NCBI RefSeq assembly: GCF_020966755.1 | Contig: NZ_JAJKFT010000010.1 | Location: 2,568,720-2,632,719, forward strand | Length of the DNA: 64,000 nucleotides | Source: Blastopirellula sediminis | GTDB taxonomy: Bacteria > Planctomycetota > Planctomycetia > Pirellulales > Pirellulaceae | Direction: 5' to 3' | Part shown: one piece after another, positions 17,145-35,487 of the stretch | Layout of the letters: each line of letters starts with the position of its first letter | Numbering within the stretch: the stretch's first letter is position 1 | Translations under genes and position numbers: made by a program | Notes under the pieces: model-generated | Databases searched by the model: none | What the model was told of the DNA's origin: nothing | The model's input: only the letters and a program-made list of their open reading frames with translations

Positions 17145-18674
17145 CTAACCCAAGCGCCAGGTCGCCCCTTCTTTGCGGTCTTCCAGCGTCACTCCAATCG
17201 CCGACAAGCGATCGCGGATGACGTCGCTCATCTCGAAGTCCTTCTTCGAGCGAGCGGTCGCGCGGACGTCGATCAACAGCTGCATCAGTTGGCCGACTAG
17301 TTCGCTGTCGCCGCTCGACGACTTTTCGGGCGCCTTGACGAAGATCCCGAGGATGCCGGTCAGTTCGCGAAGGACCGAGAACGCCTTTTTGACGCTGGTC
17401 AAATCGGCCGACTTGTTCTCTTCCAGCTTCTGCTGGTCGATCGTCTTGTTGATCAAGCGGGCGATCTCGAACAATTCGCTGACGGCGCCGCCGGTGTTGA
17501 AGTCGTCGTCCATCTTTTCGAGATAGGCGTCGCGATGCTTGGCGACCACGGTCAGCAATTCGTCCTTGCCGGGAGCGAAGTCCCCTTCTTTCCGCGTCTT
17601 GGCGGCGGCCAGGTCGTAGAAGCTTTCGCCGGTCAGACGTTCGTACCGCTCAAACAGACGATAGAAGCTGTCGAGGCCGACGCCGGCTTCGGCGATCGCT
17701 TCTTCGCTGAAGAGGATCGTGCTGCGGTAGTGCGTCCGCAGGAGGAAAAAGCGAATCCGCTCGCCCCCTTGGTTCGCGATCATCTTGGCGAGACCGCCGG
17801 CGCCTTTGGAGCGGCTCATCTTGCCGCCGGCGTCTTCGGCCGCATCGCTCTCACGCTCGGCGCGACCGCCGATCTTGCCAGCCGCCGAATCGCGACGCAA
17901 CAGACCGTTGTGCATCCAGTATTTGACCATCGGCTTGGCGTGGCAGCATTCGCTTTGGGCGATTTCGTTTTCATGGTGGGGGAAGATCAGGTCGAGACCG
18001 CCCCCGTGAATGTCGAAGGTCTCGCCCAGGATCGCTTTGCTCATCGCCGAGCATTCGATATGCCAGCCGGGACGTCCTTCGCCCCACGGACTCTTCCAGC
18101 TCGGTTCTCCCTTTTTCGCCTTCTTCCAGAGGGCGAAGTCGCCGGGAGAGCGTTTGCGGGAAGCGGCCTCGCCACCTTCCCCTTGCATCGCGTCGACAGT
18201 CCGGTTGGTCAACTTGCCGTATTCCGGGTCTTTGGTGACTTCAAAGTAGACGTCCCCTTCCGACTCGTAGGCGAACCCTTTCTCGATCAGGTCGGCGACC
18301 ATCGCGATGATGCCGTCCATCGTCTCGGTCGCTTTCGGCATCTGGTCGATCTGATCGACGCCCAGCGCCGACAGATTGTGCAGGTAGTCGGCGATGTTTT
18401 CCTTCGCCACTTCTTCCATGCTGATGCCGCGTTCGATCGCCTTTTTGATCAGTTTGTCGTCGACGTCGGTGATGTTGACGACCAAGGTGACGTCGTAACC
18501 CGAGTAAGCGAGATAACGCTTGATCGTGTCAAAAATGACCGGGCCGACCATGTGACCGATATGCGCCTCGGCGTAAACCGTCGGCCCGCAGAGATAAATC
18601 CCTACCTTGCCCGGTTCGACCGTTTGAAACTCTTCCTTGGTTTTCGACAACGTGTTGTAAACGCGAATGGTCAT
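17145..18674 (-). CDS. cysS: Cysteinyl-tRNA synthetase
   Basis: This enzyme charges tRNA-Cys. The 509-residue protein has the class I signatures HIGH at 38-41 (AEAHIGHM) and KMSRS at 285-289. Zinc ligands are visible as Cys29 (LCGPTVY), Cys208 (WHIECSAMS) and the [10 protein letters not shown] segment at 233-242. A roughly 20-residue Gly/Ala/acid-rich insert ([20 protein letters not shown]) sits just before KMSRS, longer than in E. coli. The C-terminal DALR-like helical and anticodon-binding region ends in [15 protein letters not shown]. Downstream is a strong terminator. Upstream, on the same strand, an inverted-repeat element with a GxxExxY gene separates it from ispF. Confidence 0.96.
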
Positions 18675-18692: not shown

Positions 18693-19220
18693 GATAAAGA
18701 GAAATAGAACACGGAGGCCACGGATGAATCACGGACAAGCACGGTAAGAGCCGGATGCAGCGGGCCAACGTCTCCAGGTTTAGGTTTCGGGGGTAAGTAT
18801 TTTGCGACGGACTTGCGGCTTGGGGCCAAAATTGAGGAGCAAACCCAAGGGAGTTTGCGTTCCTCGCAAGTAGTTCACTAGCTGAGCTTCGTGAGCCGGT
18901 GAGATCGAATCCGCCGCTTCGATTTCGACAATCACTTCTTTGTTAACGAACAAATCGGCGAAATACTCGCCGACAATCACGCCATCATAAAAGACTTGAA
19001 TTGGATATTGAGGTTCGACAGCCAGTCCTTGGATCGTCAGTTCGTGGAACATCGCTCTCTCGTAGACTTTTTCGAGAAAGCCGGAGCCAAGCGTTTGATA
19101 GACTCGATAAAACGCATCAATAATCGGTTGAGTTCGCTGCTGATCAACAAGCATCGCCTTCTCTCCGACCGTGTCTTACCGTGGCTCTTGCCGTGTCCTC
19201 CGTGTTCTATTCTGTTTTCT
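18693..19220 (-). mobile_element. CACGG inverted-repeat element carrying a GxxExxY gene (copy A)
   Basis: The left end (from about 18693) contains AATAGAACACGGAGGCCACG followed by more CACGG units spaced 10-12 bases apart, and TAAG. The right end (to about 19220) is its reverse complement with a few changes: AATAGAACACGGAGGACACG and again several CACGG units. Together they bracket one gene, the GxxExxY protein. The element lies between ispF and cysS, which point the same way. Two geneless copies of the same ends occur at 24836 and 35165. No target-site duplication can be read with confidence. Calling it a mobile element is inference from repeated ends around a nuclease-like gene. Confidence 0.65.
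18780..19154 (-). CDS. GxxExxY protein (PD-(D/E)XK nuclease-like)
   Basis: The 124-residue protein contains the defining GxxExxY motif at residues 25-31 (GFLEKVY) and the PDDEXK_3-type core: Asp67 in YFADLFVNKE and Glu77 in VIVEIEA. In family members the latter usually reads E-[LI]-K; here Lys is replaced by Glu79, which may abolish cleavage. The C-terminal half (AQLVNYLRGT, PLGLLLNFG) is typical. The family is found in many copies per genome in planctomycetes and verrucomicrobia; its function is unknown, with nuclease activity predicted from fold only. It is enclosed by CACGG inverted repeats and sits between ispF and cysS. Confidence 0.9.
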   Translation of the reverse strand: MLVDQQRTQPIIDAFYRVYQTLGSGFLEKVYERAMFHELTIQGLAVEPQYPIQVFYDGVIVGEYFADLFVNKEVIVEIEAADSISPAHEAQLVNYLRGTQTPLGLLLNFGPKPQVRRKILTPET

Positions 19221-19249: not shown

Positions 19250-19738
19250 TCAGATTAACTCGTCGATCCGTTCCAGTAGGACGACGCATTCCGCTTGGAT
19301 CGCTTCTTGGCGGCCGACGGGGCCGACATGTTCGCCGGTTTTGGATTTGATGCCGATCTGTTCGGGATGGATGTCGAGGACCGCCGCTAGCGCGGTTCGC
19401 ATCGCTTCCTTGTAAGGCGAAAGTTTCGGTTCCTGGGCGAAAATCACCGTGTCGATGTTGATGATTCGCCACATTTCTTCGTTCACCTTGTGGTTGGCGA
19501 AGCGGAGAAAGTCGGCCGAGTCGCGCCCCTTGTTTTCGGCCGAGCTGTTCGGAAACAACTGGCCGATGTCCGGCAAATTGGCGGCGCCCAGTAACGCGTC
19601 GGTAATCGCGTGCATCAAAACGTCGGCGTCGCTGTGACCGACCAAGTGATGGTCGTACGGAATATCGACTCCTCCCAGGCGCAGCGGGCCCCCTTCGGCA
19701 AGCCGATGGGTATCATGCCCTAATCCGATTCGGATCAT
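19250..19738 (-). CDS. ispF: 2-C-methyl-D-erythritol 2,4-cyclodiphosphate synthase
   Basis: IspF forms the cyclodiphosphate in the MEP isoprenoid pathway. The 162-residue protein has the zinc ligands Asp9 and His11 in GHDTHRL and His43 in ADVLMHAITDALLGA, the HHLVGHSDADV flap, and SKTGEHVGPVGR near the C-terminus, which forms the hydrophobic cavity and CDP-binding region. Length is standard for a stand-alone enzyme without IspD. It starts at ATG 19738. The gene order ispF-cysS is common in bacteria; here the two are separated by the GxxExxY element. Confidence 0.95.
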   Translation of the reverse strand: MIRIGLGHDTHRLAEGGPLRLGGVDIPYDHHLVGHSDADVLMHAITDALLGAANLPDIGQLFPNSSAENKGRDSADFLRFANHKVNEEMWRIINIDTVIFAQEPKLSPYKEAMRTALAAVLDIHPEQIGIKSKTGEHVGPVGRQEAIQAECVVLLERIDELI

Positions 19739-24835: not shown

Positions 24836-24994
24836 AAGAATAGAACACGGAGGCCACGGATGGGCCACGGAAAAACAGGGTAAGAAAAGAAGATTCTGCA
24901 GTTAGAAAGAGGATCGGTTCTCAAAACCCATTCTCTCTTTTTTCCTACCGTGTTGCTCCGTGCTCTTCGCCGTGGCTTCCGTGTTCTATTCTTT
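24836..24994. repeat. CACGG inverted-repeat element, geneless (copy B)
   Basis: Left end AAGAATAGAACACGGAGGCC and further CACGG units (24836 to about 24888) face the right end at about 24942-24994, whose reverse complement begins AAAGAATAGAACACGGAAGC. About 55 non-coding bases lie between. It is an internally deleted or minimal relative of the GxxExxY element at 18693, in the asnB-PQQ gap. Confidence 0.8.
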
Positions 24995-35135: not shown

Positions 35136-35487
35136 ACCTGGTTCCTGGTTTCCCCTACTTCTTGAAGAATGGAACACGGAGGCCACGGATAAATCACGGT
35201 ATTTCACGGCAAATCGAAGATGTAGGGCGGCTGGAATAAACGGAAGTCGAAATGCCACAGCAACGTGGAGTTGTTCGCTTTCCTGGCCCGCCTTTTGGCT
35301 TGCAGTCGCAATGTTGGGTTTCGCTTCGCTGCACCCAACCGACCACAGAGACTTTCTCTTGCCGTGTCTTTCCGTGGTTCTTCACCGTGGCCTCCGTGTT
35401 CCAGTTTCCGGTCAGTTGGCGATTTGTCGGAGCGCGCTATAATGCCCTGCGACGCGACCACTTACGAATCTTTGCGACAGGAATCTC
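35136..35487. other. Intergenic region holding CACGG copy C
   Basis: This is 352 bases between the HD gene and the AAA ATPase gene. Most of it is the inverted-repeat element at 35165-35409, annotated separately. The remaining 78 bases before the ATPase gene should contain its promoter. Confidence 0.5.
35165..35409. repeat. CACGG inverted-repeat element, geneless (copy C)
   Basis: The left end (AAGAATGGAACACGGAGGCC, with CACGG repeated every 10-12 bases) starts at about 35165. The right end at about 35358-35409 has the reverse complement AACTGGAACACGGAGGCCAC. About 147 bases lie between. They include the hairpin GTTGGGTTTCGCTTCGCTGC plus ACCCAACC at 35313-35340, a repeat seen scattered in many bacterial genomes. 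No gene remains. Confidence 0.8.

Follow-up and report, generated by a model that had tools for sequence, protein, structure and literature searches.

GxxExxY genes lie, in most of the loci examined, between two inverted arrays of a short iterated unit: an inverted repeat above threshold was found in the flanks of 160 of 196 distinct genes. On balance we favor the explanation that these are genome-resident repeat elements, in which the GxxExxY nuclease would recognize the unit of its own element and aid the spread of that element, gene-less copies included. One such element lies between ispF and cysS in the window, i.e. the whole stretch of 64,000 nucleotides of Blastopirellula sediminis DNA that was analysed.

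A GxxExxY gene alone between inverted CACGG arrays

Two inverted arrays of four CACGG units each (18703-19211; read from the sequence and with a repeat finder) enclose the GxxExxY gene alone (Table 1), which confirms what the sequence-only reading had described. The repeat finder returned a pair of 21-nt inverted arms (18703-18723 and 19191-19211) with a complementarity of 95% and an inner inverted pair (18740-18752 and 19183-19195); it returned no inverted pair of ≥10 nt, i.e. no hairpin, inside either end. On the plus strand CACGG starts at 18710, 18719, 18730 and 18740 in the left array and CCGTG at 19169, 19179, 19191 and 19200 in the right array, with a unit spacing of 9-12 bp. The reading frame of the gene is the sole ORF of at least 60 aa wholly inside the array pair, and the ORF list holds no partner gene between the arrays. 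With a score of 128.8 bits against TIGR04256 (GxxExxY; cut-off 35) the gene is a full member of the family, and it also matches PF13366 (PDDEXK_3), which is the only Pfam match of the enclosed gene; no HUH (Y1) transposase was found in it, and no DDE transposase was found by Pfam in the window copy.

Table 1. Positions in the window of the GxxExxY element, its flanking genes and two gene-less array pairs
Feature	Position	Strand	Description
cysS, flanking host gene	17145..18674	-	
left inverted array, downstream of gene	18703..18749	+	AATAGAA, followed by four inward CACGG units
GxxExxY gene, 124 aa, predicted PD-(D/E)XK fold	18780..19154	-	D67, E77 kept; usual K79 = E
right inverted array, upstream of gene	19169..19211	-	four CACGG units
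ispF, flanking host gene	19250..19738	-	
E2, gene-less CACGG array pair	24839..24990	.	three units left, four right
E3, gene-less CACGG array pair	35168..35403	.	four units each end

With one mismatch allowed, the window contains 6 matches to the two-unit core CACGGANNNCACGG, where 1.86 are expected, and 6 matches were reached in 3 of 100 shuffles; the bare count exceeds chance modestly. All 6 matches form three convergent pairs with longer matching arms, which places them beyond chance. A chance origin of the arrays is ruled out by the repeat finder, together with the flank statistics, the ispF control and the agreement of the two ends given below.

Predicted fold and active site

An AlphaFold model of the window protein was computed from an alignment of 30 sequences (mean pLDDT 96.2) and searched by using Foldseek against the PDB, which returned SSO0001 (E-value 7.8e-5), which we take to be Cas4, and an archaeal Hjc (5.3e-4), followed by alkaline and lambda exonucleases. 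The fold of the model is of the PD-(D/E)XK type, closest to Cas4 and Hjc; no PDB structure matches the window protein by sequence. D67 and E77 are invariant in the 30-sequence alignment, and the window protein has E at position 79, where 98% of 91 aligned rows have K. ExE variants occur in some nucleases; the replacement of the near-invariant K79 by E makes the activity of the window copy uncertain. PADLOC gave no match for the window protein and a weak Cas4 match (18.4 bits) for one of three proteins tested, and PHROGs gave no match among three proteins.

Inverted repeats in the flanks of GxxExxY genes

GxxExxY genes were present in 138 of 294 sampled Planctomycetota genomes, with a maximum of at least 14 per genome. 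We examined 210 loci, of which 130 came from phylum or genus genomes (127 from the phylum search and 3 from the genus) and 80 were named records; the latter, the 80 records most similar to nine members, are hence a non-random sample. A gene covering at least 85 profile positions was obtained for 204 of the 210 loci (L120, L183, L191, L207, L218 and L262 were dropped), and 198 of these genes had flanks of at least 120 bp. Two loci were present in duplicate (L054 = L217 and L109 = L195), and removal of the duplicates left 196 distinct genes. The threshold for a flank inverted repeat was set at the 99th percentile of 179 control pairs taken farther out from the genes.

Above this threshold, inverted repeats were found in 162 of 198 rows, compared with 52/198 in direct orientation, 31/198 for flanks of mismatched loci and 0/28 for the ispF control. 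A stricter test on exact 6-mers gave 98/198 inverted, 31/198 direct, 22/196 for mismatched partners and 0/179 for the far control. After removal of the doubles the count is the 160 of 196 given above, so that the self-contained element that had been proposed for the window proves to be general among GxxExxY genes; 36 of the 196 genes fall short of the threshold for flank inverted repeats, and for 46 there is no typed unit. Named records outside Planctomycetota exceeded the threshold in 46 of 61 cases, from which count the 11 Planctomycetota among the 72 named rows were left out. By phylum, the named set exceeded it in Acidobacteriota (12/13), Planctomycetota (10/11), Chloroflexota (9/11), Pseudomonadota (9/10), Verrucomicrobiota (4/5), Bacteroidota (2/6), Thermodesulfobacteriota (2/4), archaea (2/3) and Cyanobacteriota (0/1), with few records in the others. 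Several bacterial phyla, and archaea in at least two cases, thus share the arrangement of arrays and GxxExxY gene.

Anatomy of the arrays

The element ends are arrays of a 7-base unit that varies between loci. Over 116 elements the consensus start of an end is TTMAC followed by CRCRRAG; units repeat at spacings of 8 (156), 9 (142), 10 (46), 11 (13) and 16 (21) bases, others being infrequent, and the median distance between the stop codon and the innermost unit is 14 bp. The unit types are CACAGAG (40), CGCAGAG (21), CACGGAG (19), CACGAAG, CACAAAG and CGCAAAG (10 each), CGCAGAT and CACAGAT (8 each) and CGCGGAG (7), plus rarer ones. CACGG as a general signal of GxxExxY genes was rejected because the unit differs by locus: the sequence-only reading of the CACGG ends as the signal of the enclosed protein stands for the window copy, and elsewhere CACGG is one unit among many.

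A unit was typed in 152 of 198 rows, against 3 of 179 far controls and 1 of 28 ispF loci. When the two ends were typed independently, the same unit was obtained in 106 of 125 distinct loci, compared with a mean of 16.5 and a maximum of 28 in 2000 shuffles. Inward orientation, defined as at least two forward units upstream and two reverse units downstream, was seen in 55 of 89 cases and the opposite orientation in 5 of 89 (control, 1/85). In some copies the array extends into the reading frame and yields N-termini such as NHRDTEAQR. No target duplication was found over 116 gene elements (best z 2.6 among 1568 combinations), so transposition proper is not established; its absence makes DDE transposition less likely and would suit a nick-and-recombine or a replication-coupled route.

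Co-variation of unit and protein

On a tree of the 152 typed rows, in which the two doubled loci are still included, the whole unit requires 71 changes, against 103.4 in shuffled data (minimum 94 in 300 shuffles). For position 7 of the unit 5 changes suffice, where shuffling gives 26.7 on average, and positions 2, 4 and 5 require 31, 29 and 23 against 43.7, 44.7 and 34.8; position 1 is uninformative. Co-inheritance by itself would produce such agreement between unit and tree. A test on independent pairs of the tree, again with the doubled loci included, linked base 5 of the unit to the start of helix 1, by an acidic second residue (14:0, p 1.2e-4) and by T (17.0 vs 0.6, p 1.4e-4), this link being the best of 654 tests at p ~1e-4, for which full correction would leave ~0.1. 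Bases 2 and 4 showed no residue link of the strength of base 5 in the independent pairs, and in the named subset the acidic residue reached p 0.06 at best.

With doubles removed, T stands at helix 1 in 94 of 112 proteins whose unit has G at base 5 and in 2 of 38 with A, and in named records outside Planctomycetota in 32 of 36 (G) vs 1 of 9 (A). The codon of the helix-1 residue lies beyond the array in 149 of 152 cases. The window protein, with TQ at the start of helix 1 (placed by eye) and CACGGA units, matches the rule for base 5.

Gene-less pairs and history in the genus

Array pairs in the window were counted with and without the gene, as the sequence-only reading had proposed: one pair holds GxxExxY, and two, E2 and E3 (Table 1), which that reading had missed, hold no GxxExxY gene. 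The sites of E2 and E3 are empty in the same-genus genomes G001, G002 and G003, where G002 has an unrelated insert at the E2 site; the relatives are ~80-88% identical around these sites, so that exact junctions are unreadable. From these comparisons the CACGG family appears to have settled at new sites in the lineage of the window, unless it was lost three times.

An empty site had also been sought in the ispF-cysS gap of close relatives, and the search went the other way: array sequence is kept there in all three genomes, which indicates that the insertion in the window most likely predates the split of these species. In G002 most of the gene has been deleted from this copy, leaving its two ends and an 87-bp remnant (89.7% identical), which shows that a gene-less pair can arise through internal deletion; G001 and G003 retain one array each. 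Next to the solo array in the G003 gap (L013) there is a further inverted repeat around GGGGTCAGGTCCCC, and a similar one is present in G001 (L046). Inside E3 (35310-35342 of the window) lies TTGGGTTTCGCTTCGCTGCACCCAACC, with a similar form in a different insert of G002 (L079); it is apparently another short dispersed repeat.

The window genome (7.05 Mb, 10 contigs) holds two GxxExxY genes, both by PF13366 and by TIGR04256. The second (C10:3460440-3460775) has flanking units of the CGCAGAT type, degraded on one side, and no CACGG; its counterpart in G002 (L009) lies cleanly between inverted CGCAGAT arrays. The sequence-only reading had held that GxxExxY genes elsewhere in the genome without its CACGG ends would speak against it; the second gene is literally such a case, and the idea was widened by it to other units, not broken. 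An AAA_25-like ORF (named by eye) adjoins the second GxxExxY gene in L042/L043, and a two-gene element with AAA_25 was rejected because no array of the CGCAGAT type lies on the far side of that ORF.

With at most two mismatches, copy-number matches in the genus amount to 62 in the window genome (G000), 9 in G001, 23 in G002 and 7 in G003, of which exact matches are 14, 1, 5 and 2, respectively; a simple comparison of copy number was set aside because about half of the matches in G000 are a GGAAG variant, a number of them within AAA_25 modules. On contigs C10 and C2 of the window genome (L366-L371) there is a multicopy module of ~2.6 kb with an AAA_25 (PF13481) ATPase gene, assigned by Pfam on two copies, plus shortened copies. 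Five module copies are bracketed by inverted CACGG arrays, and the similarity between copies runs past the arrays.

Array-rich genomes

A strict CRCRRAG array pattern, which misses units ending in T and the form of the window itself (0 matches in G000), was matched up to 479 times per genome (G105), and the reversed pattern at most 4 times in any genome. At least five strict arrays were present in 57 of 138 genomes with GxxExxY vs 10 of 156 without (p 3.7e-13); the sampled genomes are related, so p values for this association are optimistic.

When one mismatch to the CACGGAG form is allowed, the array matches in G105 number 265 forward and 270 reverse, 535 together, beside two GxxExxY matches. 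Among the matches listed, 36 of 43 neighboring pairs less than 600 bp apart are convergent, with a span of 90-261 bp (median 182). The unit was compared between gene-less and gene copies within one genome in G105 and in the window genome. In a G105 sample of 32 elements, the gene copy L062 included, GATG precedes ACC at -6 to -3, with each base kept in no fewer than 31 of 32 left ends and 29 of 32 right ends, so GATG outside ACC is common to the gene copy and the sampled gene-less copies. The interiors are similar in 47 of 496 pairs and show no similarity in 449, and for 20 of the 32 elements one or more similar partners exist. Eight elements, grouped by eye into a subfamily, resemble one another over their whole length, outer ends CTAGCCCG included; these ends are foreign to the arrays, and the subfamily may have been amplified by another element. 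GC-rich hairpins, TTCGCCTTCGGCGAA or CTCGCCTTCGGCGAG, often lie just outside the GATG end of gene-less copies in G105 (L288-L313, L346-L365).

The closed genome G342 (L386-L415), which is without GxxExxY, has 44 strict arrays and 11 Y1_Tnp matches. No inverted partner within 420 bp was found for any of the 30 arrays examined there, and arrays can thus exist alone. They are oriented by chromosome half, with 21 of 26 forward before ~3.5 Mb and 4 of 18 after (Fisher p 1.7e-4; counts and split point taken by eye), and at L404 there is one tandem run of ~20 units.

Proposed mechanism and alternative explanations

A full copy of the element would consist of an array of 2-4 iterated units, the GxxExxY gene and the same array inverted, the gene product being a small PD-(D/E)XK nuclease predicted to recognize the unit of its own element. 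Protein molecules would bind the arrays at both ends, where units recur mostly every 8-11 bp, about one helical turn, and would nick or cut either there or at an intermediate in folded form. Recombination or replication by the host would then copy the element, and gene-less copies that share its unit, to new intergenic sites and leave no fixed target duplication, and gene-less copies, arising at least partly by internal deletion, would be mobilized in trans. The enclosure and its generality, the agreement of the ends, the co-variation of unit and protein, the gene-less copies, the empty sites and the deletion decay described above are observations; binding, cutting and spread in trans are what we infer.

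An account in which GxxExxY is a passenger caught between arrays, and in which HUH/Y1 or ordinary IS transposases move the array pairs, is in our judgment unlikely. As REP sequences are served by Y1 (HUH) transposases, Y1_Tnp (PF01797) was taken as a control for it. Among GxxExxY-free genomes at least five arrays were found in 9 of 73 with Y1_Tnp vs 1 of 83 without (p 0.006), which favors a passenger, as do G342, with its arrays and Y1_Tnp matches and no GxxExxY, the foreign outer ends of one G105 subfamily and the CACGG arrays carried by AAA_25 modules. Given GxxExxY, however, Y1_Tnp adds nothing (48/112 with Y1_Tnp vs 9/26 without, p 0.51), and stratified for Y1_Tnp (48/112 vs 9/73 in Y1-positive and 9/26 vs 1/83 in Y1-negative genomes, with vs without GxxExxY) the association of GxxExxY with arrays has a Mantel-Haenszel odds ratio of 7.1. 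The unit, moreover, agrees at both ends and co-varies with the protein, and the link between residue and base is left unexplained for a passenger. The array pairs around the AAA_25 module and the arrays in GxxExxY-free genomes nevertheless count against a simple one-gene element.

A host role for the arrays as binding sites, with GxxExxY as an autoregulator or a DNA-structure or repair factor that has no mobility of its own, we likewise hold to be unlikely: the predicted fold nearest to Cas4, Hjc and exonucleases would fit repair, iterated sites about one turn apart would fit cooperative binding, and the family is rare on plasmids (6 of 72,556 records) and phages (0 of 50,697) in a search with one query, but the copy number of arrays ranges from none to several hundred matches within one phylum, and sites empty in relatives and an inverted pair with a deleted gene resemble an element, not an operator set. 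We regard as very improbable a defence or toxin module for which the arrays serve as decoy or self-recognition sites; the nuclease fold and the weak PADLOC match to Cas4 in one of three proteins would suit it, and against it stand the lack of a PADLOC match for the window protein, the lack of a partner gene between the arrays and the hundreds of array matches against two genes in one genome.

For the repeat element with its own nuclease we put forward a broader proposal, to which we give about even chances: that GxxExxY proteins are the sequence-specific nucleases of undescribed self-spreading repeat elements in many bacterial phyla and archaea, that these elements use lineage-specific 7-base words, that word and protein changed together many times, and that the resulting code could be read from genomes, starting with T/E vs S/N at helix 1 for base 5.

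Relation to known systems

The sequence-only reading had likened the window element to REP/TnpA-REP pairs with another enzyme class, and the architecture supports this. Two papers on REP/RAYT and REPINs (PMC8266576, PMC3116915) describe multicopy extragenic inverted doublets, an enzyme gene linked to the repeat and co-evolution of repeat and enzyme. The likeness of the present elements to REP/RAYT (TnpA-REP, REPtrons) and REPINs lies in all three of these points, and convergent, presumably extragenic doublets in many copies, as in G105 (36 of 43 pairs among the matches listed), resemble REPINs. In REP/RAYT the enzyme is an HUH transposase, whereas here it is a predicted PD-(D/E)XK nuclease, and the repeat is a palindromic hairpin there and a run of 7-base units here, with window ends free of hairpins of ≥10 nt. 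REP/RAYT, the closest system, thus differs in two defining features, enzyme class and palindromic repeat. We read the GxxExxY array system as one that may work like REP/RAYT, run by another enzyme class.

MITEs of DDE transposons are short non-autonomous elements with inverted ends that derive from a gene-carrying copy. The GxxExxY elements share with them the inverted ends and the short non-autonomous copies; unlike them, they have no target duplication (116 gene copies) and no DDE transposase (window copy), and they have iterated units in place of one terminal repeat. With the branch of Cas4, Hjc and lambda exonuclease they share the predicted fold and the acidic active-site residues, but the GxxExxY gene sits inside its own repeat element.

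The sequence-only reading knew of no description of such a system for GxxExxY, in agreement with the literature searched, which was mostly without subscription papers and bioRxiv preprints: no earlier account was found in it. The passages in which GxxExxY is named mention the family in passing and contain no array element; a literature search for PDDEXK_3 returned nothing, and one for the repeat strings returned a single unrelated match. If the proposal is correct, a large family for which no described role was found would gain a function and a DNA target, short iterated repeats that abound in a number of environmental genomes would be explained, the REP/RAYT way of life would extend to a second enzyme class, and the small nucleases with their matching DNA words would form a natural library.

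Settings of GxxExxY elements in other bacteria

A GxxExxY element lies between fabD and fabG on a megaplasmid of Sphingomonas parapaucimobilis (L419). The fabD-fabG gap is free of the element in S. paeninsulae and Rhizobium indigoferae (L420, L422), a comparison across species too diverged for junctions to be read. In Bacteroides finegoldii (L417) a GxxExxY gene with ends of the CACAGAG type lies between radA and an FAD gene, and in Gemmatirosa kalamazoonensis (L418) a near-perfect gene-less hairpin of CGCAGAG units adjoins a GxxExxY match.
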